Source: a virus
Virus record (IMG/VR): IMGVR_UViG_3300012920_000007
Location: 1-34,594 of that record
Strand: one strand, 5' to 3'
DNA length: 34,594 bases
The position numbers and the translations under genes are program-made. Shown here in pieces: positions 4,781-34,594 of the stretch (the stretch's first letter is position 1; each line of letters starts with the position of its first letter). The notes below the pieces were generated by a model. That model made no database searches. It saw only the letters and a program-made list of their open reading frames with translations, and was not told where the DNA came from.

Positions 4781-4786
4781 ATAGTA

Positions 4787-6111: not shown

Positions 6112-6119
6112 AATTATTT

Positions 6120-6134: not shown

Positions 6135-6140
6135 ATTTTA

Positions 6141-6148: not shown

Positions 6149-6157
6149 GTAAATATT

Positions 6158-10303: not shown

Positions 10304-10513
10304 TTAGCTATTTTTCTTAATAAACTCTAAGATAATATCTATCTTACTTTTTATATACTGCATATCCTTAGCATTGTTCTCGTGATATTTTGAAAATTGA
10401 GATTTTACCTCATAAATGCTAAAAATAAAAAAACGATAAAGGGCATAACAACTACCTATAAGTAAAACTAATGTAATACCATATGTTTCTACTAATTTTA
10501 AAATATCTTCCAT
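10304..10513 (-). CDS. Small membrane protein with coiled coil, holin-like
   Basis: A 69-residue protein: one membrane helix (about residues 11-31, YGITLVLLIGSCYALYRFFI) followed by a charged helical tail to the end (SKYHENNAKDMQYIKSKIDI). The design, a single membrane segment plus cytoplasmic coiled coil, is frequent in phage lysis cassettes. Its ATG overlaps the stop of the 31-residue gene by one base and it ends one base before the DUF5675 gene. Confidence 0.72.
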   Translation of the reverse strand: MEDILKLVETYGITLVLLIGSCYALYRFFIFSIYEVKSQFSKYHENNAKDMQYIKSKIDIILEFIKKNS

Positions 10514-10608
10514 TATAGTTTGCAGTATTTACAGTTACCAAAACAAATTCTTTTGAATGATATTTTATATAATAATATACACGCCAATACTTTAAATTTT
10601 TCAATCAT
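10513..10608 (-). CDS. 31-residue cysteine-rich micro-gene
   Basis: A short frame reading MIEKFKVLACILLYKISFKR and ending CFGNCKYCKL. It has four cysteines, three of them in the last ten residues, and a hydrophobic core. It tiles exactly between neighbours: ATGA overlap with the upstream stop and TAATG overlap with the downstream start. That precise fit in a region where every junction is of this kind is the main reason to call it real. Function unknown; membrane association is likely. Confidence 0.55.
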   Translation of the reverse strand: MIEKFKVLACILLYKISFKRICFGNCKYCKL

Positions 10609-10826
10609 TTTTTACAATTTTTAATTGTTGCTAATTCTTTTTCTAATTCTACTATTCTATCTTCACACTCGTTGATTATCTTAATCTTTTTTTCAAGTCT
10701 TTTGTCTAGAACATTTATGTCTTCATCAAGTTGTGCTATTTGACTGTAAGCAATTCCCATTGTAAATATTATACCTATTATCCAAATTATATTACCTACT
10801 GATAATGTCAAATCTTTTTGTATCAC
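10605..10826 (-). CDS. Single-pass membrane coiled-coil protein, spanin- or holin-like
   Basis: A 73-residue protein beginning with GTG at 10826, which overlaps the stop of the 41-residue gene (GTGA). Residues about 10-28 (VGNIIWIIGIIFTMGIAYS) are a membrane helix, and the rest is a long coiled coil (LDEDINVLDKRLEKKIKIIN). This N-terminal anchor plus coiled coil is the layout of an inner-membrane spanin, though no outer-membrane partner lipoprotein is evident, so a holin-accessory role is equally possible. Confidence 0.7.
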   Translation of the reverse strand: MIQKDLTLSVGNIIWIIGIIFTMGIAYSQIAQLDEDINVLDKRLEKKIKIINECEDRIVELEKELATIKNCKK

Positions 10827-13646: not shown

Positions 13647-14939
13647 TTAAGTTCTTGTTATAGTTTCTTCTTTTTCTACTCTAATTAATTGTCTATCTGC
13701 AAGTAACATATCCCCATCATCTAACTTGCCTAAATCTTTGTGTAACATAGCTCTTTGCTCGTTTATAGTAAGAACTTGTTTTGGGTCTATGTCAGATAAG
13801 AATGATATTGGTGGCTCATATATTACAGTTAAATCTTCTGTATCTATACCTAGCTCTTTGTTAATCACTCTTTTTATTGGCTCTAACAATATGTTAGTTG
13901 TGTCTTTGATTACTGTTGACATAGCCAATTCATAAGCTATTCTAATCTCACTACCTGTGTTGTTCATCTTTCCTGAAGAAACAATACCACTTAACGCAGG
14001 TTGCCATCTGTGAGCAGTAATTATATTTTGGTCAGTTAGCTTTTGTAAATCTAAGAAGTCACCATCCTCTTTGTTGTTAAGAATCTGAACATCAGTACCT
14101 CTACTTTCATCTGCGTTCTTAACTAAGAATAGTATCTTAGAGTTGTTACCACTACCTGTTAAAGTGTCCTTAGCAGTTTCTACAAACTTTTCTGCTTCAG
14201 CTTCACCAAAGTCGCCATTTACAGTAACTATAGCAGAAGGACTAAATCCATTTTTAAAGTTTGTATGATTAAACTTTCCTATTTCATAATCTATTGCAAT
14301 GTGCTCTAAAGCAGCTACATAGTCAGGTAAACCATAAAAGTTAAATGTGCTTTCATAGTCCTTGTAGTGTATTACAAAGCTACTATTAGAAATATTAGGA
14401 TAAATAGGAATTACCTGCTTCTTTTCAGGATTTCTCTTATAGTTATCCCAATCAGGATGAAAGCAAATACTTTTCTTGTTTTTGCTAACTCTGGCAGTAG
14501 CAGCATCTTTGTGGTAAAAGTTTATACCACCATCATAGACAACACCCTCTAAGTAGGCGTTACCATATGTGTAGTAATCATCTGCTAGTTTCTTAAAACA
14601 ATCCTTAAGAGATTCTCCGTTAGCATTTACATCAGAGATAAACTCTGCTAACCTATCGTTTTCTGTCTTAAATCCACTACCTGTTGTAAAAGTAGTTTTC
14701 TGTGCAAGTACAGAACGGTGTGTTGAAGAATGTCTTTTTAAATCTGCTAAATATTGTGGGAAAAGATTGTCTTTACCAAATGGTATATATTCTTCTCTTA
14801 CCCTATCTATTTGCTTTACTTCTCTATCTACATTAGGTGTACTAATGTTTACGAAAGCATATTTAGTATTAAAATTACTCTTTGTCTGAACTGTCTTTAC
14901 TTGACTTCTTTTTGCTTTTTGTTTTCTTTGGTGCTGCAT
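13647..14939 (-). CDS. Portal protein
   Basis: A 430-residue protein. Typical portal features follow in order: a basic N-terminus, REEYIPFGKDNLFPQYLADL, LADDYYTYGNAYLEGVVYDG in the wing domain, then a helical core ending VIKDTTNILLEPIKRVINKE. The length and the Y-G-N-A-Y motif fit HK97-type portals of Bacteroidetes phages, the dodecameric ring through which DNA enters. The start overlaps the 66-residue gene by 65 bases; no later Met would keep the conserved N-terminal part. It lies downstream of the capsid gene, which is unusual. Confidence 0.85.
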   Translation of the reverse strand: MQHQRKQKAKRSQVKTVQTKSNFNTKYAFVNISTPNVDREVKQIDRVREEYIPFGKDNLFPQYLADLKRHSSTHRSVLAQKTTFTTGSGFKTENDRLAEFISDVNANGESLKDCFKKLADDYYTYGNAYLEGVVYDGGINFYHKDAATARVSKNKKSICFHPDWDNYKRNPEKKQVIPIYPNISNSSFVIHYKDYESTFNFYGLPDYVAALEHIAIDYEIGKFNHTNFKNGFSPSAIVTVNGDFGEAEAEKFVETAKDTLTGSGNNSKILFLVKNADESRGTDVQILNNKEDGDFLDLQKLTDQNIITAHRWQPALSGIVSSGKMNNTGSEIRIAYELAMSTVIKDTTNILLEPIKRVINKELGIDTEDLTVIYEPPISFLSDIDPKQVLTINEQRAMLHKDLGKLDDGDMLLADRQLIRVEKEETITRT

Positions 14940-15075
14940 CTTCTACAAATTCTATGTGTTTTGTGTGACCAAGTTCATAGGCTTTTTTAAGTTCTTCTTG
15001 TGTAGCATCTGCCCACATAAAGCCTTTCATATTGTTGAAACGAGCCTCACCTTTTTTTACTTTTGATTTATACAT
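14875..15075 (-). CDS. Small basic protein upstream of portal
   Basis: A 66-residue protein with an N-terminal part MYKSKVKKGEARFNNMKGFM and WADATQEELKKAYELGHTKH, then a Lys/Ser-rich tail (KKTKSKKKSSKDSS). Short proteins with this ATQEELKKAYELG pattern occur near structural genes in Bacteroidetes phages. It overlaps the portal start by 65 bases in another frame. The ATG sits in a palindromic context, ATATTGCAATAT, that recurs in front of the gene at 18166. Function unknown. Confidence 0.65.
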   Translation of the reverse strand: MYKSKVKKGEARFNNMKGFMWADATQEELKKAYELGHTKHIEFVEDAAPKKTKSKKKSSKDSSDKE

Positions 15076-15085
15076 ATTGCAATAT
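15074..15085. promoter_or_regulatory. Palindrome overlapping a start codon
   Basis: ATATTGCAATAT, a perfect 12-bp palindrome covering part of the start codon of the gene at 15075. A near copy, ATATCGCAATAT, is at 18165-18176 with the same relation to the start at 18166. A protein bound here could control translation or transcription of both genes. Confidence 0.4.
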
Positions 15086-15088
15086 ATT

Positions 15089-15121
15089 AAAAAAATACAT
15101 AGCTAGGGGCATTTGCCCCTA
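15089..15121 (-). terminator. Hairpin terminator after the tail tube gene
   Basis: On the minus strand a 7-bp GC-rich stem, TAGGGGC/GCCCCTA (15121-15104), with a 4-base loop, followed 8 bases later by seven T (15095-15089). It lies 24 bases past the tail-tube-like gene. It is probably a terminator, perhaps partial, that sets the level of the portal genes below that of the capsid genes. Confidence 0.75.
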
Positions 15122-15145
15122 ACTTGTGTATCTTAATTACTATAA

Positions 15146-15706
15146 TTATGCTATAGAGTATGAGCCGTCAGAAGCATCAATAGTTACAGCAGGAGTTAGT
15201 AAGTATGGTAACTCACCTGACATAGCAGTAAATGTTAATGTAACTCCGTTCTCATCACCTAAAGCAGCACCTGTTGCAGCTTCAACACCTGATAGTCTAG
15301 CATACATTTGGTCATTTGAAATATCTCCTGTAAGAGAATACTTGTTAGAAAGACCAACTACATAAGTAACATCATTGAAGTCAGTAGCGAAAACAACTAA
15401 GTTCTCATTACTTAAAGTATCAATAGCAGACATATGTGCATCAGACATATTTGGTATATAAGCAGAAATAGTGTGTTCAAACATAATTGTTCCACCCTCT
15501 TTTGTTCCTGAGCTAGTTAGTGAGCCTGTACCTTGCTTAAGTTCAAATAACTTAACATTTGCTTCTGTGATAGTAGATATCGTGTGATTTGCAGCAGAGT
15601 CAAAAGCTACAGAACTAATATCAGAAAACAAGCAAACACCCAAGTGCTTTAGACCACCTCTCCTTTCCAAGTCGGAGTGAACAACGCTAATTTTTTCTAT
15701 TGCCAT
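15146..15706 (-). CDS. Probable major tail (tube) protein
   Basis: A 186-residue beta-rich protein without cysteines beyond C25. Regions such as GTKEGGTIMFEHTISAYIPN and VVFATDFNDVTYVVGLSNKY look like tail tube strands, and the C-terminus is Ser/Thr/Ala rich. It directly follows the major capsid gene and is isolated by hairpins on both sides, as expected for a highly expressed structural gene. The alternative is a head decoration protein. Confidence 0.65.
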   Translation of the reverse strand: MAIEKISVVHSDLERRGGLKHLGVCLFSDISSVAFDSAANHTISTITEANVKLFELKQGTGSLTSSGTKEGGTIMFEHTISAYIPNMSDAHMSAIDTLSNENLVVFATDFNDVTYVVGLSNKYSLTGDISNDQMYARLSGVEAATGAALGDENGVTLTFTAMSGELPYLLTPAVTIDASDGSYSIA

Positions 15707-15736
15707 TTTATTTTGGTTTTATTGTGTTAAAAATTA

Positions 15737-15762
15737 TTAGGGGGAGTATTTCATCCCCCTAA
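15737..15762 (-). terminator. Hairpin between capsid and tail tube genes
   Basis: A perfect 9-bp inverted repeat, TTAGGGGGA (15737-15745) and TCCCCCTAA (15754-15762), with an 8-base loop. On the minus strand it begins 5 bases after the capsid stop and is followed by TAATTTTTAAC. It is a likely partial terminator or an mRNA-stabilising 3' hairpin. Confidence 0.8.
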
Positions 15763-15766
15763 ATTA

Positions 15767-16789
15767 TTATGCCATATTATCAGGCGTATAGTAAGCAGCT
15801 AATTTAGCATCTTTCAAAGCTACAGCTATAGAGTAAGCTACTCTAAAACGATACTCTTTGTTATCGTTAGAATACCATTGCTCTACAGAGTTTTCGTTGA
15901 TGTCAGTAGCAACAACAAAAGCATCTTTAGTAGTTAACATAGCTCTGTGAGTTTCAGCAGCATTAGAAGCACCGTTAATGTTTGCAACATTAGAAGCGAT
16001 AGCCACATCCCAATCTCTACGAACAATAATAGGAATACCTCTATAAGTTAATTGCTGAACACCATTAACCAAAGCTCCATATCCTGCAGCAGCATATCCT
16101 GAGTTCTCAAGAGTTTGTGCCATATAATCATCAGCAATATCACCTGATACAAAGTAAACGTGATTTCCTGCTTCTAACAATTCAGGAGAAGCAATATCAT
16201 ATAAACCTTTCATAATTTTCAAGCCATATCCACTATCTAAAGCAGCATCAGTTGTCTGCTCAGGAGCGAAACTACCTCTGTTTAATTTGTTAGCAGTTAC
16301 ATTGAAAGCTGCATCAAATAAACCATCATATTGGTCAAAAGCACCTGTACCACCTGCAGCACTTGATAACCAAATCTGCTTGTTAAAATCACCTTTTATA
16401 CCTTGTCCGATAAGGTCTAATAAAATGTTTTTTACAATAGTTCCATCAACATTATCAAATTCGTGACCACCTCTCATAAGTTGTCCTTTGATTTTGTTGT
16501 ATAAAGAGTTACCTGCAAACGCAACCTCTGCTTCTCTACGAACAGGAGTTAATGTTACAGTATCACCGATTTCCTCATTACCTGCTGATGATGAGAAAGC
16601 TGATGAAGAAAAAGCAGTTGTAATATTTCCTAATTGCTTGAACTTATCAATAACGATAGTTCCTGATACATTAGGCATTACATCCATATAAGACATATAG
16701 TCTTGCCCCATAAATAGAGGCTCAATAATTGATTTACTTACATCATATTTATTTACTGTAGGTAAACTTGCACTTGTTAAAGTCGCCAT
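15767..16789 (-). CDS. Major capsid protein
   Basis: A 340-residue protein placed right after the ClpP-like protease. It has the composition and layout of HK97-fold capsid proteins of Bacteroidetes phages: an N-terminal arm, an axial-type helix region (GTIVKNILLDLIGQGIKGDF), a Gly/Ala-rich middle and a C-terminal AYSIAVALKDAKLAAYYTPD. The SSAFSSSAGN loop could be the extended E-loop. It should self-assemble into the icosahedral head. It is 14 bases from the protease gene and is followed by a strong hairpin. Confidence 0.85.
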   Translation of the reverse strand: MATLTSASLPTVNKYDVSKSIIEPLFMGQDYMSYMDVMPNVSGTIVIDKFKQLGNITTAFSSSAFSSSAGNEEIGDTVTLTPVRREAEVAFAGNSLYNKIKGQLMRGGHEFDNVDGTIVKNILLDLIGQGIKGDFNKQIWLSSAAGGTGAFDQYDGLFDAAFNVTANKLNRGSFAPEQTTDAALDSGYGLKIMKGLYDIASPELLEAGNHVYFVSGDIADDYMAQTLENSGYAAAGYGALVNGVQQLTYRGIPIIVRRDWDVAIASNVANINGASNAAETHRAMLTTKDAFVVATDINENSVEQWYSNDNKEYRFRVAYSIAVALKDAKLAAYYTPDNMA

Positions 16790-16803
16790 AATTTTCTAAT
16801 TTA

Positions 16804-17166
16804 TTATTTTAATAATGATTTAGCAAAAACATCCCATTCATTAACTACAACATCAGCTTCGTTAATTGCAGGGTCTTTTTCTGCTTCTACTTTAGTTTCT
16901 GTAGCGTTTAGCTTCGCTAATTCAGCTTCTAATTCAGACACCTTGTTTTCTAATTCAGAGATAGAAACCTCTTTGTCAGAAATGATGCTTGATAGTTCTT
17001 CTTTCTCGTTTGACAAGTCTGTAAGTTTGTTTACAACTTCTTCGTTATCAGAAAGAACAACGGAAACTTCCTCATTAGCAGGGGCTTCAGCTACGCCTTC
17101 TCCCTTCACAGCGTTAATGATTTCTTCTTTAACACCGTTAAACCAATTTTTCAATTCGTCAGTCAT
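16804..17166 (-). CDS. Nested scaffold protein from internal start
   Basis: The protease frame has an internal ATG at 17166 (M211, MTDELKNWFNGVKEEIINAV) just where the protease domain ends and the acidic coiled coil begins. Translation from it would give a 120-residue scaffold alone, as in lambda C/Nu3. The A-rich bases before it are suitable for a Bacteroidetes ribosome. The nested product is inferred, not shown. Confidence 0.5.
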   Translation of the reverse strand: MTDELKNWFNGVKEEIINAVKGEGVAEAPANEEVSVVLSDNEEVVNKLTDLSNEKEELSSIISDKEVSISELENKVSELEAELAKLNATETKVEAEKDPAINEADVVVNEWDVFAKSLLK

Positions 17167-17796
17167 TTTCGTTTTCTTAATATTACTAATTAGTTCCAAT
17201 CTATTTTTAACTTCTTTTTCATCTACATTAGTAAACTTTGAAAAGTTAAAACTAGCAGCTACTTTGATAGGCTCTGTTATAGTATCTATAAAACCCATCT
17301 CTTTAGCCTCTTGACTTGTCAGCCAAGTCTCTTTATCCATCATATCCGATATTGTCTCATCTGAAAGTTGAGTTTTGTTTGAATAGATAGACACAAGCTC
17401 TTGCTTGATTTTATCGAGTAAATCGGCAGTCTTACGCATATCATCTGCTCCACCTGCAGACTTACCAAAAGGATTGTGTATCATAAAGAATCCATTTTCT
17501 GCCATCTCTATATTATCACCTGCTAAGGCAATGATACTAGCTATTGATGCAGATAGTCCTTCAATCTTAACATTAACATATCCTCTGTGTGAACGCAAAA
17601 CATTGTAGATTGCAAGTCCATCAAAAACACTACCACCTACGGAGTTCATTCTGATGTTTATATCCTTGTCACCTGCCGACTTTAAGTCGTCTATAAATCT
17701 TTTTGCAGAAGTGCCGTAATCACCTATCTCATCATAGATAGATATTTCAACAGTTGAACTTTCTGCTTCATTCTGAAATTCGTACCAATTATTCAT
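16804..17796 (-). CDS. ClpP-like head maturation protease fused to scaffold domain
   Basis: A 330-residue protein. Residues 1-190 form an S14 ClpP-like serine protease: NSVGGSVFDGLAIYNVL, GLSASIASIIALAGD with the likely nucleophile S84, FMIHNPFG with H107, and MDKETWLTSQEAKEMGFID with D154 completing the triad. Residues 210-330 are an acidic Glu-rich coiled coil (ISELENKVSELEAELAKLNA), the usual form of a scaffold. The protease trims scaffold and capsid arms during head maturation. It lies directly upstream of the capsid gene. Confidence 0.92.
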   Translation of the reverse strand: MNNWYEFQNEAESSTVEISIYDEIGDYGTSAKRFIDDLKSAGDKDINIRMNSVGGSVFDGLAIYNVLRSHRGYVNVKIEGLSASIASIIALAGDNIEMAENGFFMIHNPFGKSAGGADDMRKTADLLDKIKQELVSIYSNKTQLSDETISDMMDKETWLTSQEAKEMGFIDTITEPIKVAASFNFSKFTNVDEKEVKNRLELISNIKKTKMTDELKNWFNGVKEEIINAVKGEGVAEAPANEEVSVVLSDNEEVVNKLTDLSNEKEELSSIISDKEVSISELENKVSELEAELAKLNATETKVEAEKDPAINEADVVVNEWDVFAKSLLK

Positions 17797-17839
17797 TTTG
17801 CAAATGTAATTATATCAATAATAGCTCTTTAGAAAAAGT

Positions 17840-18166
17840 TTACAAATTCTTTCTAATATTTGTTTTTGTGTAAAAATTAGACTTAGTTTTATATAAAATA
17901 TTTTGTACTGTTCTTTCCGAAATATCGTATTTAATACCTAAGTCAATCATAGTTACACAAATCTTACCATCATTCTTTTTTAAGAAATCAGCGTAATCTT
18001 TTATAATCATATAATCTCGTAATCTTCTAGGCTCTATCAGGCCTCTCTCTGCTAGGAACATCAAAACATCTTTTATTCCTGCTTCTTCAGAATGTCTATT
18101 TTTGATATCTACATAAGCACTTTCGACAAATTCTTTGACAACAGTAAGCTTATTATTTTTTATCAT
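17840..18166 (-). CDS. Helix-turn-helix regulator inside the structural operon
   Basis: A 108-residue protein with GIKDVLMFLAERGLIEPRRL, RDYMIIKDYADFLKKNDGKI, then a helix-turn-helix with ICVTMIDLGIKYDISERTVQ and NILYKTK. The pattern of a MIDLGIKYDISERTVQNI recognition unit recurs in Bacteroidetes mobile elements. It is likely a DNA-binding regulator. It stands between tape measure and protease genes with gaps of 66 and 43 bases, and its start codon lies in a palindromic context shared with the gene at 15075, which hints at autoregulation. Confidence 0.75.
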   Translation of the reverse strand: MIKNNKLTVVKEFVESAYVDIKNRHSEEAGIKDVLMFLAERGLIEPRRLRDYMIIKDYADFLKKNDGKICVTMIDLGIKYDISERTVQNILYKTKSNFYTKTNIRKNL

Positions 18167-18232
18167 ATCGCAATATATTCTTTTACAAAAACTATATAAT
18201 TTTATTAAAATTTATTTATCAACAATCTGTTG

Positions 18233-21200
18233 TTAAAACGAAGCTTGGCTTTCTAAAGACGAAACTCTGTTCTGTGTTGAGGTTACATCACTCTCCACCA
18301 TTACAACCTTTTGTTTTAAATTACCACCTGTAACCATTTGTTGTATGTTTGCTAGTTCACCACCCATAGCAAATTTCTCACCTGATGATATCAATCCACC
18401 ATCTGCAAACTTTACGCCATTGCCGTTATAGGAGTTTATAGCAGATAGTATAGGTCTAAACCTAGCAGTTGACTTTTTATTTATTATAGCCTCACCACCT
18501 TCTGCTTCGTGTATTCTGCCACCTACTGCAAACTTAACACCACCACTAGCGTGTGAACGACCTTTAAACATACCACCTTTTGTAAGACCACCCTTAGCAA
18601 ATCTAAATTCTTCACCCACTTCATCTACATTACCACCACCAAATCCACCAAAAAGAGAAAGTGCAGCAACTAAAACGCCAATAGTAGCAGCAATAGCACC
18701 TAAGTTTGCAGGGAATGGTGTTGTTGTTGCAGATTTAGAAACAGTTTCTGCAGCGTTTGCAGTTGTTGCTGCTGCCGAAGTAGCAATACCTGTAGTTTTT
18801 GTTTTTATGTTTAATTTTTCTTGTAATGTTTGTATTGAAGTAGCAAGAGCAGCAGCCTGTTGTAGTTTTGTTCCTATCTGAACAAGCTTATTGTTTTCAC
18901 CCATAACACCACCTAATTGCTGCATAGCACCACCCAAATCATTTACATCTGATATTCTTTGTGCTATGGCTTCTTTCTGTGTTTGTATTGTGGTTAAATC
19001 TATCTGTCTTTGTTCATCAGCTAGTCTTCTTTGCTCCTCTAAATCACCTACTAATATATCTTTTTTAGCAAGTAAAAAATCGGATTCTAATTGTAAAAGC
19101 TTTTGCTTGTGTTCTGCTTCAGTAATAAATTTTTTAGCTAATTGCTCATCTATATTATGTTTTTCTGTTTTAAAATTTTCTTCTGCCTTGAGGAGCTTTT
19201 CTTTTCTAATTTCTTCAAGAACTTTTAGTTCAGCTTTTTGTATCTTAAGATTTATTGCTGATGTATCTTTATTCTCCTCTAGCAATAGTTTTTTAAGTTC
19301 TTCTTGATGAAATATTTCTTCAAATAGCTCTGCCCTTTTTAATGCATTAGAATCATTTTTAAATTTTTCTCTTATTCTCAACAACTCCTCATTGTGTCGA
19401 GTCATCTCCATCTCTCTCCTTGTTGTAATACCTAATGGGTCTTTATCATCATCTTCACCTGTGCCTTCAGTACCCAATATACTTACACCCTCACTCATTT
19501 GCTTTTGTAAACTCTTTTGAATTTTAGATGTTTGTTCTTCAAAGAAACCTGACTCTATTGCTTCTGCAAAATCTTGTAGTGTCATACCCTCTGCCTCTAG
19601 CATATCTCTTAGCCTTGCTGCTCTTTGACGAGTAAAATCTTCTTGTGATATTTGACTTATATCGGTAGTAAAGTTCGTGTTTTCTTGAAGAAATTCAATA
19701 GCCCTTCTAGCGTTTGCAATTTCATCATTTATATCTTCAAATGTTGAAAAAAGTCTATTATTTCTCATTTCAAGAGGAGTTGCTCCTTTATTAAACTCCT
19801 CTAAAAGTAAATTAGCTCCAACTGCTTGTTCAAGAAAATCTTTAGATAATTTCTGAAAACTATCCTGCAACATTCTGTCTTTCATTTTAGTAATCAAATT
19901 GTCTGTGGATGTTATAATATCATCTATTGTTGATTTTTCTGTAAGTAAAGTTTGATTATATTTTCTGTTTATCTTGTTTACATTAACAAGCTCTAATCTA
20001 AACTTTTGTTTTTTATCATTATATATTGCTTGACCCTGTGCAGTATTATTTATAAGCTTACCCTCTTTATCAAGCAACTCATTCAGTTTTCTTTTAGAAT
20101 TAGCTAAAGATTGTGTTTGTATTACGGCTTCCTGAATATCTTCACGACCTTCTTTTTGTGCCTTGTTTAGTCTTTCTTGTACGTCAACAACATCAAATAT
20201 GGCAGACTTGCTTTTCATAAGATTTACAGCAAGTTGACCTAAAGCTACAACCAAAAGACCTATACCTGTGGAAGCTATAGACGCAGTTAAAGCTCTAAAA
20301 CCATTTCTTGCAACAACCAAACCCCTCATCAAAGAGCCTGATAGCGTTGCTCCTGCCCTTAATGAAACACTACTAAATACACTTGTTGCTAAAGATGCTG
20401 CTTTTACACCGATAACATATGTAGCTATAATTTTTATTAGACTACTTGTTGCTTTTGCAAACTTTGTTATTCTATTTATATTCTTTTCATTAGCTATAGT
20501 ATTAAAAGCTTTAGCAAAAGCATCAACAATATTTTGCATCCTTTTGCCTAAACCATCCATCAATGCAATTCTAAGTCCATCAACTGCCGATTTGAATCGT
20601 AAGAAAGCACCCTGTAAACTATCTCCAACAATCGCAGCCATGGCCTCTGCAGCTCCTTCTGAGTTTCTTAAAGCTTCAGTAAGCACTTCTACAGACTCAC
20701 CACTATCTAGTATTCTACCAAAAGCTGCTGCAGTTCTTCTGTCAGTAATACCTAAAACATCAGATAGTGCAACACCTGAATCTTTTAGCTGTTTTAGTTT
20801 TGGTATTAGTTCATCAACAGAGCCCACAGAGCCACCTAGTCTTTTTGATAAATCAGATGTAGGGTCAGCCAATCTAAGCAATATGTTTCTTAAAGATGTA
20901 CCTGCAATAGAAGCCTCAATACCTGCATCAGTAAGGGAAGCCAATATTGCAGTAGTGCCTTCAATTTCAAAACCTGCCATCTTAGCAATAGGAGCAACCT
21001 TAGTCATTGATGTTTGAAACTTCTCAATATCTAAAGCAGAACTTGTAAAAGCAGTAGCCATAACATCTGCTACTCTTGTTGCTTCACTAGCATCAAGCCC
21101 AAAACCTCGTATAGCAGACCCCATAACTGTTGCAGTCCTACCTAAGTCTTCACCTGCTGCAGTAGCTGTTGCAAGTGTCGCTGCCTGTGCATCTAGTATC

Positions 21201-21739
21201 TCAACAGATGTAAAACCAAGCTTTGAAAGATTTGTTTGTAGTTCTGCTACTTGTGTTGCAGTAAAGAATGTTGTTCTACCAAGTTCTTCTGCGCTAGTCT
21301 TTAGTCTTTTAAATTCTAAATCCGTTGCACCACTAATAGCTCTAACCTTAGCCATCTGAAAGTCAAACTCCTTGAATACTACAACACTTTCTTTAATTTG
21401 GTCGCCAAGAAACTTTGTTGCTTTTTTAAGACCATCTACTGCTAATGATGCAACACCAAAAGCAGTAGCCATCTTCATAGTAAAGCTAGTGCTCTTTTTG
21501 GTTTGTGCCTGTACTTCTTTTTGAACTTTAGAGCCTTCTCTAAATTCTTTTCTTTGCTTTTTTAGTTCATCTGTGAGCTCAAGGACTTGCTTCATATTTT
21601 CCTTTTGAGCATCCTTATCACCCTTTAAAGCTTTCTTTTTTTCACGAAGCTTTTCGGTGTTTGCTTGAATATCTTTATTGAGCTTAACAAGCTCATCAAT
21701 ACCTAATACTCTTACTCTATACTTTAATTCTTCAGCCAT
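18233..21739 (-). CDS. Tape measure protein
   Basis: A 1168-residue protein, the longest in the window. A coiled-coil N-terminus (residues about 15-75) leads to a TP901-type tape measure domain with AEELGRTTFFTATQVAELQT, ATATAAGEDLGRTATVMGSA and GTSLRNILLRLADPTSDLSK (about 130-390). Hydrophobic stretches at about 460-525 and 1010-1035 may insert into the host membrane. The C-terminus has repeated FAxGG units (FAKGG, FAVGG, FADGG, FAMGG). Tape measure length sets tail length; 1168 residues imply roughly 170 nm by the usual rule of 0.15 nm per residue. It overlaps the gp10-like gene by 8 bases. Confidence 0.95.
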   Translation of the reverse strand: MAEELKYRVRVLGIDELVKLNKDIQANTEKLREKKKALKGDKDAQKENMKQVLELTDELKKQRKEFREGSKVQKEVQAQTKKSTSFTMKMATAFGVASLAVDGLKKATKFLGDQIKESVVVFKEFDFQMAKVRAISGATDLEFKRLKTSAEELGRTTFFTATQVAELQTNLSKLGFTSVEILDAQAATLATATAAGEDLGRTATVMGSAIRGFGLDASEATRVADVMATAFTSSALDIEKFQTSMTKVAPIAKMAGFEIEGTTAILASLTDAGIEASIAGTSLRNILLRLADPTSDLSKRLGGSVGSVDELIPKLKQLKDSGVALSDVLGITDRRTAAAFGRILDSGESVEVLTEALRNSEGAAEAMAAIVGDSLQGAFLRFKSAVDGLRIALMDGLGKRMQNIVDAFAKAFNTIANEKNINRITKFAKATSSLIKIIATYVIGVKAASLATSVFSSVSLRAGATLSGSLMRGLVVARNGFRALTASIASTGIGLLVVALGQLAVNLMKSKSAIFDVVDVQERLNKAQKEGREDIQEAVIQTQSLANSKRKLNELLDKEGKLINNTAQGQAIYNDKKQKFRLELVNVNKINRKYNQTLLTEKSTIDDIITSTDNLITKMKDRMLQDSFQKLSKDFLEQAVGANLLLEEFNKGATPLEMRNNRLFSTFEDINDEIANARRAIEFLQENTNFTTDISQISQEDFTRQRAARLRDMLEAEGMTLQDFAEAIESGFFEEQTSKIQKSLQKQMSEGVSILGTEGTGEDDDKDPLGITTRREMEMTRHNEELLRIREKFKNDSNALKRAELFEEIFHQEELKKLLLEENKDTSAINLKIQKAELKVLEEIRKEKLLKAEENFKTEKHNIDEQLAKKFITEAEHKQKLLQLESDFLLAKKDILVGDLEEQRRLADEQRQIDLTTIQTQKEAIAQRISDVNDLGGAMQQLGGVMGENNKLVQIGTKLQQAAALATSIQTLQEKLNIKTKTTGIATSAAATTANAAETVSKSATTTPFPANLGAIAATIGVLVAALSLFGGFGGGNVDEVGEEFRFAKGGLTKGGMFKGRSHASGGVKFAVGGRIHEAEGGEAIINKKSTARFRPILSAINSYNGNGVKFADGGLISSGEKFAMGGELANIQQMVTGGNLKQKVVMVESDVTSTQNRVSSLESQASF

Positions 21740-22241
21740 CTTGGTTTGCTTTTTTTATGGTTTTTGTAAACTGTAATTTTATATTATCTCCAATAACCTT
21801 TTGTAATCTTTTTTTAATCTTAGCCTTTTTAGGATTTATAGCACGATTTATATAGTTTGTTCTATGAGTTGCTCCTGTTCTTGCAAAACTACCTTTCGTT
21901 GGAGTTCCCTCTATTTGTATTCTTCTAATAACAGCAGTTGCTATTCTTGCTTTCTCTGCTTCGTTTGCATAAGCTATACCCTTATCATCTATCCATTGCA
22001 TTATCTTATCAAATGGTGGTGAATGTGGTCTAGTGCCTTTATCTATAGCACTCCAATACTTTGCCTTTGATGTAATGCGTACTTCTGCTTCAGAGTTGCT
22101 TACATTAACTTTATGCTTAGTTGATGCAGCAAGTTTACCTGTAGCAATATGTTTTTGATTCATTAACTCATTTACAAGTGCCTTCTTGATATCTTTACCA
22201 ATCGTATCTAATTCGCTATTTAGTATTGTTTTTATATCCAT
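21732..22241 (-). CDS. HK97 gp10-like tail component
   Basis: A 169-residue protein with the gp10-like pattern: HIATGKLAASTKHKV, then AKYWSAIDKGTRPHSPPFDK and IMQWIDDKGIAYANE. Family members act at the head-tail joint or in tail completion. The C-terminus is very basic (PKKAKIKKRLQKVIGDNIKL). It is coupled by TAATG to the LamG-like gene before it and overlaps the tape measure start by 8 bases. Confidence 0.8.
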   Translation of the reverse strand: MDIKTILNSELDTIGKDIKKALVNELMNQKHIATGKLAASTKHKVNVSNSEAEVRITSKAKYWSAIDKGTRPHSPPFDKIMQWIDDKGIAYANEAEKARIATAVIRRIQIEGTPTKGSFARTGATHRTNYINRAINPKKAKIKKRLQKVIGDNIKLQFTKTIKKANQDG

Positions 22242-23188
22242 TAGTATGGTACTTTTGAATTTTGTTTAATAAGAGCACTTTCTATTTTATCTAATGACAG
22301 GCTCAACGCACCATTCCAAAACTGAACACCACCAATACTACCACCTAAAAATTCACCACTATCTATTGCTCTACCTAATGTATTTATTGTTAAATCATTG
22401 CTTGTAACACTTGTTTCTGCTTGTTTTACACCATCAATTCTAGTAGTCAAAACATTTGACTTTCTTACCAATGTTAATACATATGGTCTGTTTAATTCTA
22501 GTTTTGTAGATGTTGAGATGATATATGTGTTTCCTGAGCCAAACCCAACGTGTAAATTTGAATCTGCATTTTCATTGAAAGTTACAAAAACATCTGCATC
22601 AGAATTATTTCCAAGAAGCCTTGCTCTTTGTTTGACGTGTAAAGAAAACATAACAAATATTGTAAAGTTGTCACGCAAAAGTATATCTGAAGAACTTGTC
22701 ATAAAAGAACTAAACTTATCAAAATATGGTGCTGAAGCACCTACTATACCACCACTTCTTCCACCAACATATGGCTGATTTCCTGTTGTAGATTGCGTAA
22801 AAGATAAATCTGACTTTATAGAGTTCCAATCACTTACCCTTACACCTGAATATTTACCATCAGAATCATTACTTAATACACCTCTTTTGAATGTAAAAAA
22901 TGATGAGTTAGTTACAGAAACACTTGTGCTTGTTGTTGTAGTACCTTGTGCTGTTTGATTTATTAAAACTTCTAACTCATCAAAAGTAGAGTTTGAATTG
23001 TCTCTATTAACAATAGGTTGTTGCTTTGATACTCTTTCAGGGTCGGTAACCAAGACTTCACTATAGTAGTATTCACCATCAGACTCTTGTTGCTCATAAA
23101 GCATAGGCGTATATACACCATCTATAAGTGTGTACAGCTTATTTCTGTTTCTTCTTAATACTTTTCTTCCTGATATACCTGCTTTCAT
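22241..23188 (-). CDS. Virion protein with lectin-like (LamG) domain
   Basis: A 315-residue protein. The N-terminal 95 residues begin MKAGISGRKVLRRNRNKLYT and are a probable attachment part. Residues about 110-305 look like a concanavalin A/LamG jelly roll: DNFTIFVMFSLHVKQRARLL, LELNRPYVLTLVRKSNVLTT with RIDGVKQAE, and GGSIGGVQFWNGALSLSLDK near the end. Such domains bind sugars, so it may help adsorption to the host surface. It lies between the tail hub-like gene and the gp10-like gene. Confidence 0.75.
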   Translation of the reverse strand: MKAGISGRKVLRRNRNKLYTLIDGVYTPMLYEQQESDGEYYYSEVLVTDPERVSKQQPIVNRDNSNSTFDELEVLINQTAQGTTTTSTSVSVTNSSFFTFKRGVLSNDSDGKYSGVRVSDWNSIKSDLSFTQSTTGNQPYVGGRSGGIVGASAPYFDKFSSFMTSSSDILLRDNFTIFVMFSLHVKQRARLLGNNSDADVFVTFNENADSNLHVGFGSGNTYIISTSTKLELNRPYVLTLVRKSNVLTTRIDGVKQAETSVTSNDLTINTLGRAIDSGEFLGGSIGGVQFWNGALSLSLDKIESALIKQNSKVPY

Positions 23189-25941: not shown

Positions 25942-28325
25942 TATGTAATTATTGTTCTTTTCTTTCTACTCTCAACATAATTAACAGTAACAGAAGTAGG
26001 GTTTTCAGAATCATAGGTGTTTATATTACCATCTTTTAGTAAAACAGGAACATAATAAGCTTTGTTACTAGAAGCAAATTGATTACTCTGATGAGGCTCA
26101 TCAGTTGAATATTCAGTAACCTTAATATAGTCAACATAACCTATTCCTGCATTGTTAGGGTGGTGTAGCAAAAACATAGGGGCAAAGTATTCTACTACTT
26201 TATCATCATAATTACTATATGCTCTTGCGTGATTTATAGGGACGCTCCTATCAGACCCATAAACTCCACTATCCCTTATATATCCACTAATATATCCTCT
26301 AGCAACTACCCACTTTGCTGAATTAGATAAATCCTGTGCTTGTAAAGTAATGTAGTGTTGGCTACTATATGAGTCACCACCATCATTAGCATTGACTTTT
26401 GTTCCATTAAAATCGCCATTACTACTTCCTGCATAACCTGTCAAACCACAATAATAATTCCCTGCTCCATTTTCATCTCTTAATCTTATTTCTACCTCGT
26501 AAAGCTTATTTGGGTCGTATTTAAAAAGTTTTTTACTTGATAACCAAGCTTGGTCATTACCACTATTATTACCTTTTTGATAAGCAGAATTTCCTGTTAT
26601 ATGACCCTTATCAGTAACAAATGATGCATCTGTAGTAAAATCTCCACTATCTGAGCCATTAACCCAATTATTTCCAATTTCTGAAACAGAGCTGTATGAG
26701 CTAAAATCTTCTTTAAATATTTCTTTTGCTCTCCAACCTCTTTCTACCCAAACATTAGGACTACTCATCATATCTTCTATCATTTGGCTTTCATCAAATG
26801 TTATAGGTCTTGTTGTTGCACTTCCGTTTCCATAGGCATCTACCGTATGTTTTCTAATAGATGGGTATTGGTCGTCTGTAACTCCTGCAATTCTTTGTAT
26901 TAAAGCACCACCATCAGCACCTGCAGTTGTCTGTTGTATGTGATTTCCTATAAAAAAAGTGTTGTCAGTATGAGTTCCTGATAATTGTCCTCTAAATTTA
27001 GGGTATATAGTTTGTTGATATGTAGATGAGCTTGTTTGCAATCCTCTAGTAGTAGTACCATCAAAAGTATAGCTATCTATACCACCTAACCTACATTGCC
27101 AATGGAATCTTGTGGTTTCGTTATAGTTTCTTCTTTTATGGTCAATAGTATATCTTATAGTTTCACCAATTCTTTGGTAAGGAGATGAGTTATTTCTAGT
27201 AACAACCTCATAATAAGCTACATTAGAAAAGTCAGATAATGGTTGAGAATTTTTAAATTTTCCTGAGTGTGTAATCGCCGTTTCTTTTATGTTTCTAGTG
27301 CCCACGCCTATCTGAATAACTGCGTAAGGTGCATTAGCATTTCCACCATCACCATAGCTAAATAAGCCTTGATGACCTGTAAGTGTGCCATCACCATCTG
27401 CAGTTCTATTTATGTCAATACCATAAAAACTATCAGTATGTGAGTTTGGTATAGTGTTGCCATTAAAATCATAAAAAGTTATTGTAGCATATATTCCACT
27501 TGCACCGTCTTTGGCTGCAAAAGTTAGGTATTCAGATTCATCAAGTCCTATAATTCTATTTTGTGGTTTTACAGATAGATACTTCATTCTGTTGTAATGC
27601 TTTTCTACATCATTAGAATCGTGAACATATATCTTTTCTATATGACTATCTTGTCTTTCAGCAACAAAATCATCCGTTTCATTATTATGAGCTTCTGCAA
27701 AATATCCATAAATTTCTTCGTTGTGTGTAAAAGCTGCATTTAATGCTCTTGGATAACAATACGCTTTTAAGTCAGGTCTTCCACCATTTCCATCAGCAAG
27801 AACTAACTTTCCTGTGGTATCTATGTATTCAGGAATAAAACCTATCTGATATCTAAAAAATAAATTATATGCTATTTGACTTAGCGTTATATCTCTATGT
27901 ATTCTAGGGTTACTTGTATCGTGAGAGCAAGGTCTTAGATTATAGCTTAGGTAATTTCTCATTAAAGGAGCACAATCCAAAGTAAAGTATCTGTAAAGAG
28001 CACCTGTACTAGCAGGAGTATTTTGTTTATTTGGAGTGCTATCAATAGACCATCCGTGAATAAATGGGGTATATGGTACGTGTACTGCAAAAGTTTCATT
28101 AGGCAATGCAGTATTAGTATAAGAACTGTCATTATTATTATTTAGCCATTGGTCTGTTGTTTCATTGTATGGAGTAAAGTGAAACCTACCACTTACAAAA
28201 TCTTCTACATTACCTGTTAACCCATCTACATCTCCACCATTAACCCTAAAGGTTAGTTTTATGGGACTATACACACTTTGAAGTCTATTATCTTTTGGAT
28301 TATCTATTTTTTGTATTGTAGCCAT
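25941..28325 (-). CDS. Large tail / receptor-binding protein with inserted CBM-like domain
   Basis: A 794-residue protein rich in Asn, Ser, Thr and Tyr. Residues about 1-545 and the last 45 look like parts of one tail protein, with WVERGWRAKEIF before and KAYYVPVLLKDGNINTY after. Between them, about 550-745, is a jelly-roll region (EDFSSYSSVSEIGNNWVNGS, LYEVEIRLRDENGAGNYYCG) like carbohydrate-binding modules of phage tail spikes. It probably contacts the host surface. The insertion reading is my inference from the sequence pattern. Confidence 0.68.
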   Translation of the reverse strand: MATIQKIDNPKDNRLQSVYSPIKLTFRVNGGDVDGLTGNVEDFVSGRFHFTPYNETTDQWLNNNNDSSYTNTALPNETFAVHVPYTPFIHGWSIDSTPNKQNTPASTGALYRYFTLDCAPLMRNYLSYNLRPCSHDTSNPRIHRDITLSQIAYNLFFRYQIGFIPEYIDTTGKLVLADGNGGRPDLKAYCYPRALNAAFTHNEEIYGYFAEAHNNETDDFVAERQDSHIEKIYVHDSNDVEKHYNRMKYLSVKPQNRIIGLDESEYLTFAAKDGASGIYATITFYDFNGNTIPNSHTDSFYGIDINRTADGDGTLTGHQGLFSYGDGGNANAPYAVIQIGVGTRNIKETAITHSGKFKNSQPLSDFSNVAYYEVVTRNNSSPYQRIGETIRYTIDHKRRNYNETTRFHWQCRLGGIDSYTFDGTTTRGLQTSSSTYQQTIYPKFRGQLSGTHTDNTFFIGNHIQQTTAGADGGALIQRIAGVTDDQYPSIRKHTVDAYGNGSATTRPITFDESQMIEDMMSSPNVWVERGWRAKEIFKEDFSSYSSVSEIGNNWVNGSDSGDFTTDASFVTDKGHITGNSAYQKGNNSGNDQAWLSSKKLFKYDPNKLYEVEIRLRDENGAGNYYCGLTGYAGSSNGDFNGTKVNANDGGDSYSSQHYITLQAQDLSNSAKWVVARGYISGYIRDSGVYGSDRSVPINHARAYSNYDDKVVEYFAPMFLLHHPNNAGIGYVDYIKVTEYSTDEPHQSNQFASSNKAYYVPVLLKDGNINTYDSENPTSVTVNYVESRKKRTIIT

Positions 28326-29530
28326 TATATATTATATTTTTGCTGTAATTCCGTACTTATGTTTTGAATAACTGTATCTGAGAATGATTGGTCATATACT
28401 ATCACTTCTTGAACATCATATTGCCCAAAATAATCAGGAGAGCCACTACTATTTAAAACAGAGCCCAATATAAGCTTGTTAGTGTCATCTGTAGCAGAAA
28501 AATTAAAACTAGCATTATCTGAGCCTTCTGTTTCTGTTCCATCTACATAAAGTGATACATCATCTGTGCTACCATCTAACCTAAATGCGTAAGATGATAT
28601 TTTAGTAGAGGCATCTGCAACTAAAACACCTTCAGTATCACCCTCATTATCTTCTACAATAAATTGCATTTTTAACTTATTAACTAGACCACCACCTATG
28701 TATATGCTATTGTTTGCTCCTGCTTGATTTATACTTAATAAACCATTATACACCTGACCATCTGACCCTGTTGCTTTAGTTACTATAAAAGCAGTAAAGT
28801 TTAAAAATCCTAAGGTTGTTATACCTGAAGTAAGTCCGTTTAAAGATAAATTTTTAGACTGTAAATACTGACTTGTACCATTAAATGAAATATAAGGCTT
28901 ACTGTTTTCAGAATGTGACAGATAATAGTTTGGAAGACTAGATGAGCTTTGGCTTGTATCTATTTCAAAGTGATTGTCATTACCACTTTGGTCTTGCCAA
29001 AATCTTACTCTTTCAGTTCCACCAACAATTTGAGTTGATACACCCTTGTCTGCTCTTAACCAAATTACAGGGCTATTATCAATAATGATACCACCATAGC
29101 TTGGTATGTCGTGAGTAAATGCGTTGAGAGTAAAAGATAATCTTACTTGTATTAACTTATCGTTATACATTTCTTTCTCTCGTTCTATTGATATACTATC
29201 AGGACTTAAAATTACCTCTTTTTTAGTGTAATAAGCAAGTACGCTTTTTATCCATAGTAAAGCATCATCTTTAAGTGTATTATAAGCAGATTCTATGCTT
29301 GTATTAGAGTTTTGAAAGTTTGGTCTAACAAAAAGACATTCAAAAGAATATTCTTCCTGAATATCTCCTTCAGCACCAATAACCTCTGATGTTGGGGGCA
29401 AAACTAAAAGCAAAGGATATGTGTTATTGTGCTTTTCGTTTATTTCGTTTTCATATCCAAAAATAAAGTCACCTAAGCTCCATCTATCTTTAAATACCTT
29501 AACTATTTCTTGCAGCGTGTTTATTGCCAT
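28325..29530 (-). CDS. Tail protein fused to a LamG-like domain
   Basis: A 401-residue two-part protein. Residues 1-140 (LQEIVKVFKDRWSLGDFIFG, EYSFECLFVRPNFQNSNTSI, KLIQVRLSFTLNAFT) look like a small tail-completion or tail-terminator domain. From about 150 a LamG jelly roll follows (VIWLRADKGVSTQIVGGTER, VRFWQDQSGNDNHFEIDTSQ, and VQEVIVYDQSFSDTVIQNIS at the end). The W-x-D-x-S-G-N-D motif is shared with the protein at 31352-32116 (LWDDSSGNNR). Fusion of a tail core domain to a lectin domain would place a sugar binder on the tail shaft. Confidence 0.72.
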   Translation of the reverse strand: MAINTLQEIVKVFKDRWSLGDFIFGYENEINEKHNNTYPLLLVLPPTSEVIGAEGDIQEEYSFECLFVRPNFQNSNTSIESAYNTLKDDALLWIKSVLAYYTKKEVILSPDSISIEREKEMYNDKLIQVRLSFTLNAFTHDIPSYGGIIIDNSPVIWLRADKGVSTQIVGGTERVRFWQDQSGNDNHFEIDTSQSSSSLPNYYLSHSENSKPYISFNGTSQYLQSKNLSLNGLTSGITTLGFLNFTAFIVTKATGSDGQVYNGLLSINQAGANNSIYIGGGLVNKLKMQFIVEDNEGDTEGVLVADASTKISSYAFRLDGSTDDVSLYVDGTETEGSDNASFNFSATDDTNKLILGSVLNSSGSPDYFGQYDVQEVIVYDQSFSDTVIQNISTELQQKYNI

Positions 29531-29838
29531 TATTTAATATTTTTTTGACTTTCTTCTTTTACAGCTATTTCAAAATCAGACTTGGATGTTTTCCAAGCTA
29601 TGTATGTTAAAACCTTATATAGTTTTTCGTCTTTAACGCTTTGTATGGCATCTTTACCGTCTTTTGTAAACAAACCATCCATAGCAACATCATAAAGGCT
29701 GTTAAGCCACCCATATGGCTTCATAATCCTACTAGCCTTTACGACTGCAACAGACTTTGAGTTTCCTGCTCTGAAAACATTCGGATAGCGTTCAGACACA
29801 TTGTTGTTCGTTTGTTCAAAAAAAAACTGAACTCCCAA
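29530..29838 (-). CDS. -1 frame extension of tail assembly chaperone (GT-like)
   Basis: An open frame of 102 codons in the -1 frame relative to the gene at 30392-29739, overlapping it by 100 bases. It has no good start before M38 (MKPYGWLNSLYDVAMDGLFT); the longest start is TTG. Homologous-looking segments (YGWLNSLYDVAMDGLFTKDG, LYKVLTYIAWKTS) are common in tail regions of Bacteroidetes phages. The T9 run at 29826-29818 lies at the very beginning of the overlap, so a -1 slip would give a 287-residue fusion. Independent translation from M38 is the alternative. Confidence 0.65.
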   Translation of the reverse strand: MGVQFFFEQTNNNVSERYPNVFRAGNSKSVAVVKASRIMKPYGWLNSLYDVAMDGLFTKDGKDAIQSVKDEKLYKVLTYIAWKTSKSDFEIAVKEESQKNIK

Positions 29839-30392
29839 ACGATATCCATTGTAAGTTTTCTAAATTTAGCGACTTTATCGTCTATATTATCTAAATCTAC
29901 TTCCTCATCAACTGCTTTGCACATTATAGCCATTTGTTCAGGCAAAATGTCAAACCTTCCGTTTTTCAAATACTCAACTCCCATCTCTAGCTGATTTGCT
30001 TCAATATATTCTCCAAATGTTCCTTCGCTAAAAAAGTTCATTGGAAAATAGTATTTTACGCCATCAACATCAAAACTATCTATTCCCTTCGGCTCATAAT
30101 CTTTCATTATATTATCTAATGAAGAAATTACAGCATCTACATCATCAACAGGATATTTATTTACATCTTTTTCGCTTACTCCTGTCATATAGCAAAAAAG
30201 CTCTCTATACATCTTAGTTTGTTGAACAAAGAAAAACTTGCTCAAATCTTTACCTTCATCTTCTTTTTTCTGCTCCTCTGTTCTTTGATACTTTTTGATT
30301 ATCTGATAAATACCACAATAGTAATCTATTGTCATTTCTTCCCATTGACAAGGTATAGACTTTTCTTTACCGTTAATCTCTAATACTAACAT
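29739..30392 (-). CDS. Tail assembly chaperone-like protein (G-like)
   Basis: A 217-residue protein, acidic, with a WEEMTIDYYCGIYQIIKKYQ start and GVKYYFPMNFFSEGTFGEYI followed by EANQLEMGVEYLKNG. This layout (substrate-like N-terminal strands and helices, then a helical end) fits tail assembly chaperones of Bacteroidetes phages. Frame 0 ends 25 codons after a slippery T run; the -1 frame continues for 95 codons. The product would bind the tape measure and tube during tail assembly. Such genes usually lie beside the tape measure, but here it is 8 kb upstream, which lowers confidence in the name. Confidence 0.6.
   Translation of the reverse strand: MLVLEINGKEKSIPCQWEEMTIDYYCGIYQIIKKYQRTEEQKKEDEGKDLSKFFFVQQTKMYRELFCYMTGVSEKDVNKYPVDDVDAVISSLDNIMKDYEPKGIDSFDVDGVKYYFPMNFFSEGTFGEYIEANQLEMGVEYLKNGRFDILPEQMAIMCKAVDEEVDLDNIDDKVAKFRKLTMDIVWEFSFFLNKRTTMCLNAIRMFSEQETQSLLQS
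29817..29826 (-). promoter_or_regulatory. Slippery site for -1 ribosomal frameshift
   Basis: Minus strand: nine T then G, read in frame 0 as AGT TTT TTT TTG. Two X_XXY_YYZ heptamers fit, T_TTT_TTT and T_TTT_TTG. A slip of -1 moves translation from residue 192 of the 217-residue protein into the frame ending at 29530, giving 287 residues. This mirrors the lambda G/GT arrangement. Confidence 0.65.
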
Positions 30393-30812: not shown

Positions 30813-31352
30813 CTATACAGTTAGTGTTACTGTTTGTTTTTTACCACCAAAACCTGCTGAATATACTACAACATCATATCTGCCACCTCTAGGTATTATT
30901 GTTTGTATTGTGGTAGCCGTTATATTTGATGGTGTAAATATTTTCCAAGTATTTCTATCAAATAAAAATTTTGTTTTTTCCGTTCCTGTAGATGCTGAAG
31001 CAGTCCAAGTTACAGTATCTCCCTCTCTAAATTTTAGAACATTTGGTGTTAATTTTATTGTTCCTGTTCTAGTATAATGTACTTTTCCGTCAACGTGTTT
31101 TTCATAAGACTTTTCATTTTTTAGATATTCCATTTCTGCATCTTGTTCTCTTAATACTTTAAGCTTTTCAGATGTAGATAGTGAGTTTTTTTGTGTTGCT
31201 CCATCAATAACACACATATATATGTCGTTTGCAGCATCTAGCTCTGTAGGAAAATCTATACTCTCCCCTGATGGCTTTCCTAGTGCTGTATTAACTCTAT
31301 TTATTGCAGCTTGACACTCTGCCTGTGTTCCTTTGAAAAATTCTCTTGCCAT
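30813..31352 (-). CDS. Virion protein with Ig-like C-terminal domain
   Basis: A 179-residue protein. Residues 1-80 (EFFKGTQAECQAAINRVNTA, LGKPSGESIDFP) resemble an N-terminal module seen in Bacteroidetes phage tail proteins. Residues about 92-179 look like an Ig or PKD-type beta sandwich (TGTIKLTPNVLKFREGDTVT, GGRYDVVVYSAGFGGKKQTV). Such domains decorate virions and bind surfaces weakly. It is TAATG-coupled to the LamG protein before it. Confidence 0.6.
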   Translation of the reverse strand: MAREFFKGTQAECQAAINRVNTALGKPSGESIDFPTELDAANDIYMCVIDGATQKNSLSTSEKLKVLREQDAEMEYLKNEKSYEKHVDGKVHYTRTGTIKLTPNVLKFREGDTVTWTASASTGTEKTKFLFDRNTWKIFTPSNITATTIQTIIPRGGRYDVVVYSAGFGGKKQTVTLTV

Positions 31353-32116
31353 TATATTCCTACTCTTGTTTTTATATCATCTATTACTAAATCAAAATTT
31401 GCATCAGAAAGCCCTGAATTATATACTGCTACTTCTGCTATGGTAATTTCTGTTCCTGAAGCAGATTTAGTCCCCAAAACATCTATATCAAATGTAGCAG
31501 TTGTATTACTTTCTGTTGTGCTACTTACAACATTTGACCTGCTATTTCTAAAAAATTCCAATGTTGTGCCACTTCTTCTTACTGCAAAAACAAAAAGTTG
31601 ATTATTTACGTGAGGAAATGCTGTTTCAACACTATCTGTGTGGGCGTAATTTTGGTCACTAACATTTCCACCAAATGAATAATAGCTTCCTGTTAAAAAG
31701 CTAAGATTACCTACAGATAGACTATCGTTTGTTGTACTACCACTTATTACATTATTTATTTTAGTTGTTCCTGAGTTAAAAGGCATCCTTACTGCCATAA
31801 ATGCTGTAAATTCGTTTGTGTTTGGAAAATCACTATCTGTACCATATGTACTATTCAATTCCAAATACTTATCTGAACTAAAAATTACTGTATTGTCATA
31901 CGCCGTAAACTCAGGTCTTCTGTTGGTAGCAGTAATATTTCCCATTTTTCTGTTATTACCACTACTATCATCCCAAAGTGATACCTCTGTGCCACTTGTT
32001 GTTATACCTGTATTGAATTTATACCAAGCTTGTAGTCCACTAATATCTGTTAAAGCAAACCCACTTGACCTAACTCTAGGGCTACCTACGCCCATATGTA
32101 ATCCTAAACTAAGCAT
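31352..32116 (-). CDS. Virion protein, LamG / concanavalin A-like domain
   Basis: A 254-residue protein in which residues about 22-250 form one LamG-type domain: ISGLQAWYKFNTGITTSGTE, VSLWDDSSGNNRKMGNITAT, FTAFMAVRM, and IAEVAVYNSGLSDANFDLVI at the end. This family binds carbohydrate. The short N-terminus (MLSLGLHMGVGSPRVRSSG) probably docks to the virion. It lies between two small virion genes right after the terminase, a less usual place for a host-recognition protein. Confidence 0.75.
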   Translation of the reverse strand: MLSLGLHMGVGSPRVRSSGFALTDISGLQAWYKFNTGITTSGTEVSLWDDSSGNNRKMGNITATNRRPEFTAYDNTVIFSSDKYLELNSTYGTDSDFPNTNEFTAFMAVRMPFNSGTTKINNVISGSTTNDSLSVGNLSFLTGSYYSFGGNVSDQNYAHTDSVETAFPHVNNQLFVFAVRRSGTTLEFFRNSRSNVVSSTTESNTTATFDIDVLGTKSASGTEITIAEVAVYNSGLSDANFDLVIDDIKTRVGI

Positions 32117-34485: not shown

Positions 34486-34594
34486 ATGTTGGTAATCCAT
34501 ATAAAAGGACGGATTTTCTTGTCAGATTGTCAGTAAATCAGTAAAAAAAAGCGTTAGAATCGTGAATATTTGTATAAATAAAGAAAATTTGTAG
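34486..34594. repeat. Right copy of 109-bp terminal direct repeat
   Basis: Exact copy of bases 1..109, in the intergenic space upstream of the terminase genes. Once the two copies are merged, the gap between the last early gene (ending at 220) and the small terminase gene is about 420 bases. That is a usual place for a packaging site and for divergence between the end of the early operon and the start of the late operon. Confidence 0.95.

Follow-up and report, generated by a model that had tools for sequence, protein, structure and literature searches.

In phage lambda, gpG binds the tape-measure protein, and recruitment of the tail tube subunit falls to the T part of gpGT (PMC5009743). The -1 frameshift of dnaX takes place at A_AAA_AAG, with a Shine-Dalgarno-like stimulator on the 5' side and a hairpin on the 3' side (PMC3711429). 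Runs of T can also be sites of transcriptional realignment, which has been reported for runs of more than eight T's (PMC3711429). The anti-Shine-Dalgarno sequence of Bacteroidota is occluded; the prfB frameshift with a Shine-Dalgarno-like sequence is nevertheless common among them (PMC8710568).

The DNA analyzed here, called the window, is the whole stretch of 34,594 nt (positions 1 to 34,594 of the IMG/VR record IMGVR_UViG_3300012920_000007). We believe that it very likely carries a programmed -1 ribosomal frameshift yielding a 217-aa protein and a 287-aa fusion, probably a chaperone pair of the gpG/gpGT kind. No report of this frameshift was found in the open-access literature. Like lambda gpG/gpGT, the locus has a short protein of chaperone size and, near its 3' end, a C-terminal extension in the -1 frame, and both products are presumably required in unequal amounts. 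It differs in the slip site, which is T_TTT_TTT/T_TTT_TTG, in the extension of 95 aa, in the lack of a detectable sequence or solved-fold match, and in its position: the lambda pair adjoins the tape-measure gene, whereas the pair here lies about 8 kb away. As in dnaX, a slippery heptamer is preceded within a few bases by a Shine-Dalgarno-like sequence, GGGAG. The gene is a different one, the first heptamer here follows GGGAG after 5 nt and the second after 8 nt, and no conserved downstream hairpin was found. The window shares a nine-T run with the transcriptional realignment sites, but its homologues keep only T7 in frame.

The coordinates of the features are listed in Table 1. The 217-aa gene and the -1-frame ORF overlap by exactly 100 nt, and the -1 frame is open from stop to stop, from about 29859 to 29530. 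Slippery heptamers of the X_XXY_YYZ type are present in phase within this overlap, and the T9 run is the only run of at least nine T's on the coding strand of the whole window. By translation, a slip at either heptamer leads to the same 287-aa fusion with 95 residues past the run. The TAA that ends the -1 frame and the ATG of the following gene overlap as TAATG, at 29530. The overlap in the -1 relation, the T9G with two heptamers at its start and the length of the fusion had all been described in the first-pass annotation and agree with our measurements. The first internal ATG had been placed at codon 38 and is in fact codon 39 of the -1 ORF; this ATG is not conserved among relatives.

Table 1. 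Features of the putative frameshift locus and of the tail genes near it.
Feature	Position	Strand	Basis or detail
Tail tape-measure protein, 1168 aa	18233..21739	-	phrog_1533, E 3.5e-60; PF10145
Neck/connector-like protein	21732-22241		
0-frame gene, candidate gpG-like product, 217 aa	29739..30392	-	stop TAA at 29741-29739
-1-frame ORF, 102 codons from TTG	29838-29530	-	ORF list
T9 slippery run, read AGT TTT TTT TTG AAC	29818..29826	-	T_TTT_TTT and T_TTT_TTG in phase
-1-frame extension, 95 aa, which the slip is predicted to add to the 217-aa gene	29530..29817	-	codon-position statistics
Stretch 3' of the slip site with constraint on both frames	29739..29817	-	codon-position differences
GGGAGTTC element directly 5' of the slip site, Shine-Dalgarno-like GGGAG	29829..29836	-	synonymous diversity

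A protein scan with the 217-aa protein matched 79 IMG/VR loci at 34-99% identity. Alignment-based scans enlarged this set, family 1, to a total of 116 distinct IMG/VR sequences. The register of the run was identical in 116/116. The run was T9 in 107 and T10 in 8, and the last one, L156, has nine T's. The T10 clade reads GTT or ATT TTT TTT TTG, which is the same register as T9. Past the run, the -1 frame is open in all family 1 relatives but L156, where it is broken about 40 nt after the run, at the contig edge; the sequences of L028 and L092 are truncated at contig ends. The extension protein is kept from the first codon after the run to the stop (FFFEQTN...YPNVF...PYGWLNSLY...LYKVLTYLSW). The internal ATG is not kept: the RIMKPYGW of the window corresponds to KFIKPYGW in a second clade, F replacing the ATG. 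Part of the set was found through the extension pattern P[YF]GWLN[ST]L, which does not touch the run; therefore, the conservation of the run is not an artefact of the search. No match to the family 1 proteins was found in the annotated phage collection or in bacterial genomes. In one relative, L029, a difference near the stop lets the extension continue in frame into the next gene, to 384 aa after the run.

The proposal of a programmed -1 frameshift is thus supported by the relatives, because the run is conserved, the internal ATG is not, and the second frame is conserved as a protein. The opposite pattern, a conserved internal ATG without a conserved T run, was absent among the 116 sequences.

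The distribution of differences over codon positions changes along the locus. Upstream of the run, differences fell on 0-frame positions 1/2/3 at 0.20/0.12/0.68. After the run and before the 0-frame stop, they fell on -1 codon positions 1/2/3 at 0.44/0.26/0.30, and past the 0-frame stop at 0.22/0.07/0.70. This pattern therefore indicates dual coding in the overlap and ordinary coding past the 0-frame stop; the statistics count related sequence pairs and are descriptive, with no formal test. With the site and the phase conserved, the comparison points to purifying selection on the -1-frame protein.

Synonymous diversity per codon was computed over 65 non-redundant family 1 sequences. It was 0, 0 and 0 at codons 189-191 (S/A/V-F-F), and the gene mean was 0.41. 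This, together with the recurrence of run and register in the 116 relatives, exceeds what chance would give. The two codons just 5' of these also showed very low values, 0.034 (Glu) and 0.031 (Phe). In the window's family the Glu codon is GAG in 57/58 and the Phe codon is TTC in 64/65, contrary to the commoner codons of the gene, GAA and TTT. The low diversity at these codons marks an element conserved at the nucleotide level, GGGAGTTC. It sits upstream of the slip, and therefore coding in the overlap cannot explain its conservation. The element occurs only in the T9 members of this family. It is weakened to GGGAATTC in three loci (L087, L096 and L100) and is missing from the T10 clade and from family 2, described below, so that it would be a lineage-specific stimulator at most. 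GGGAG looks Shine-Dalgarno-like, and it may stimulate the slip.

Downstream of the run, single-sequence z-scores were near zero, alignment folds were weak only, and no conserved stem that could act as a stimulator was found. A long-range stem, GUUUGGGAG/CUUUCCAAAC, was proposed around the run by RNAalifold in some clades. Its central pair shows no covariation and the stem is missing from clades with TATAAAAAC, so it was rejected. No Rfam family was found within the window.

Deeper homologues were reached through structure and profiles. The predicted fold of the 217-aa protein had a mean pLDDT of 75.9, and a structure search with this model returned 33 viral models at E<=1e-3, including gp38 of the Nonlabens phage P12024S (Inhavirus; NC_018271). 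In this isolate, gp39 lies in the -1 frame of gp38 and their overlap holds a T9 at the position aligned with the run of the window. The run is read xTT TTT TTT TAT, without GGGAG. The pair is placed just after the terminase, and the two genes are annotated as separate and unrelated hypothetical genes, gp39 as an ATG gene. From the sequence, gp38/gp39 (L187:23136-23830) looks like one frameshift pair with a T9 site. Single sequences of family 1 and of the gp38 family, family 2, matched weakly, and the profiles matched at E 1.2e-10 over the body and at 3.8e-11 over the extension; the Phe-Phe slip codons coincide in this alignment. Both parts of the P12024S pair are therefore homologous to the window's pair at the profile level.

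Family 2 consists of 63 gp38 relatives in IMG/VR, P12024S, and six loci in bacterial genomes, regarded as prophages; together they reduce to 43 distinct sequences. The bacterial-genome loci come from Galbibacter pacificus and from MAGs labelled Bacteroidetes, Dysgonomonas, Winogradskyella and Flavobacterium. The run was T9 or T10 in 43/43 distinct sequences; two L247 matches in the family 2 tally are an unrelated gene. Internal ATGs are not conserved in this family either. Two more T9 cases (L259 and L260) were found, together with a third family from sampled Bacteroidota genomes. Family 3 was present in 36/201 genomes sampled from one Bacteroidota family, and its homology is stronger to family 2 (E 2e-8) than to family 1 (E 5.9e-6). 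An in-phase T_TTT_TTT was present at the aligned Phe-Phe in 30/31 distinct loci, at a GC of 0.38-0.50. The runs are as short as seven T's, and many loci have exactly seven. The exception, L271, is a single 199-codon ORF. In both L271 and L262 (209 codons), the extension profile is matched by a single ORF in one uninterrupted frame, and judging by their reading frames these are possible natural fusions that need no frameshift. The constant feature across the three families is thus the in-frame -1 heptamer T_TTT_TTT.

Two further candidates did not hold. The Croceibacter phage P2559Y, which is the best terminase match, has no equivalent pair in its 10403-10647 gap. The gp10 of Flavobacterium phage 6H (L188:10047-10927) is a fold match, but a simple -1 event does not account for its frames. 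The 3' end of this gene changes frame, and the next gap of 305 nt holds an unannotated open frame; a sequencing error or another recoding event is possible there.

Because the in-phase T_TTT_TTT is common to the three families, the comparison points to ribosomal -1 slippage. Under such a mechanism, most ribosomes would read the 217-aa gene to its stop. The few that carry tRNA-Phe in both sites (P and A) on T_TTT_TTT, or Phe and Leu on T_TTT_TTG, when they slip one base back would continue in the -1 frame, giving the 287-aa fusion with its 95-residue helical extension. We infer that the slip is made by the ribosome and not by RNA polymerase, and that its efficiency is low.

The rival that survives best is slippage of RNA polymerase, by which one U would be added (or two dropped) on the T9 template and a share of the mRNA would encode the fusion. 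Runs in the window's family are never shorter than nine T's, one heptamer needs fewer, and so polymerase slippage would also explain this family. The lengths are in the range for which realignment has been reported (PMC3711429), and family 2 attains its nine T's by another codon layout (2+6+1 vs 1+6+2). However, runs of more than eight T's are present in families 1 and 2 and absent from many members of family 3, whose T7 is exactly the in-phase heptamer, and these relatives disfavour polymerase slippage as the general mechanism. The T's outside the heptamer can derive from the flanking amino acids. An upstream terminator-like hairpin abutting the run, which would aid polymerase slippage, is not conserved (the mean z was about -0.2 to -0.6 for T9 groups and +0.3 for the T10 group), and the nucleotide conservation of GGGAG better fits a ribosomal stimulator. 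Taken as the whole explanation, polymerase slippage is improbable, and the ribosome is favoured as the slipping machine, although both kinds of slippage could operate in the window itself. It is also unlikely that in the T9/T10 families the fusion comes at least partly from polymerase slippage, which would set the tail-chaperone ratio at transcription; if so, the T7 relatives would depend on the ribosome alone.

The second frame could otherwise be a separate gene, initiating at the NTG at 29838 or at an internal start by coupling or re-initiation. An NTG does stand just 5' of the run in the -1 frame in nearly all relatives examined, and gp39 of P12024S has been annotated as a gene with its own ATG. 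This NTG arises from the conserved Trp codon: the nominal TTG start of the window exists only because a T precedes TGG. It is TTG in 56/77 and CTG in L160, and selection for ATG is not apparent; neither family 1 nor family 2 conserves internal ATGs, and the T run would be superfluous for initiation. We consider a separate gene very unlikely. The last reading, one ORF broken by an assembly or sequencing error or by decay, starts from the error-proneness of homopolymers and is refuted by the same run length and phase in more than 100 independently assembled relatives, by the run in the isolate P12024S and in bacterial-genome homologues, and by the constraint on the 0-frame C-terminus past the slip.

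We think it likely that the 217-aa protein and the fusion act as tail assembly chaperones in the manner of lambda gpG/gpGT. This role is suggested by the location of the pair among tail and connector genes. No Pfam or PHROG tail-chaperone family matched the pair, and no solved structure in the PDB matched the predicted fold of the 217-aa protein. The best named structural matches were weak (viral models called 'tail assembly chaperone', E 0.14 and 0.59), and family 2 weakly matched phrog_166, 'tail protein'. As no curated family or solved structure stands behind the chaperone name, we rate the role as likely and not higher. The first-pass annotation had spoken of tail genes with the logic of lambda G/GT, which is plausible by location; the matches to curated families or solved structures that would anchor the name were not found. 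It had also remarked on a gap of 8 kb to the tape measure, and this was reproduced: the tape-measure gene starts 8.1 kb downstream of the slip site, and the gap is conserved in close relatives. In relatives with both genes on the contig the distance is about 7.5-8 kb, and it is 6.2 kb in the T10 member L164. In P12024S the pair is 6.4 kb from gp49, which is a weak tape-measure match only. Thus, in the window, in the close relatives checked (6-8 kb) and in P12024S, the pair does not immediately precede the tape-measure gene as it does in lambda, which counts against the chaperone role. The ORF list of the window shows no other overlapping -1 pair beside the tape measure, and this and the conserved distance speak for the role.

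The window has other features. The region 13647-21739 has an unusual order: the tape measure is followed by the head protease, a capsid-like protein of 340 aa, a possible tail tube protein of 186 aa at 15146-15706, and the portal. All of these genes are distant from the terminase; protease, portal and tape measure were named by PHROG, capsid and tube by eye. Three structural genes, 31352-32116, 28325-29530 and 22241-23188, look like members of a single lectin-like (LamG) group. The profile phrog_10356 is common to 31352-32116 and 28325-29530, the latter has a sub-threshold Laminin_G_3 match, and 22241-23188 was assigned by eye only. An A9 run at 3867-3875, read TTT AAA AAA AAA GAA, lies inside a 348-aa ORF (4757-3711). 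Upstream of minus-strand genes, 4752-4805 and 6106-6159 are 80% identical copies. The minus strand of the first copy has TATCTTTG and that of the second a similar sequence, and both resemble the Bacteroidota -7 promoter element, TAnnTTTG. An identical direct terminal repeat of 109 nt is present at 1-109 and 34486-34594, so the record probably represents a whole genome of about 34.5 kb, circular or terminally redundant.

The terminase is closest to those of Croceibacter, Cellulophaga and other Bacteroidota phages. Bacteroidota genomes also contain homologues of families 2 and 3. These similarities suggest that the marine phage group of the window probably infects Bacteroidota. Since the prfB frameshift with its Shine-Dalgarno-like sequence is common in this phylum, a stimulator of that kind is possible in such hosts.

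Overall, the locus is a well-supported further case of a known type of recoding. It assigns a firm, testable frameshift to genes that lack annotation in a large group of marine phages, which probably infect Bacteroidota. In the isolate P12024S, parts that were annotated separately can now be assigned to a probable frameshift pair, and two protein families without curated annotation gain a probable name. The locus also offers a test case for a Shine-Dalgarno-like stimulator in hosts whose ribosomes hide the anti-Shine-Dalgarno sequence.
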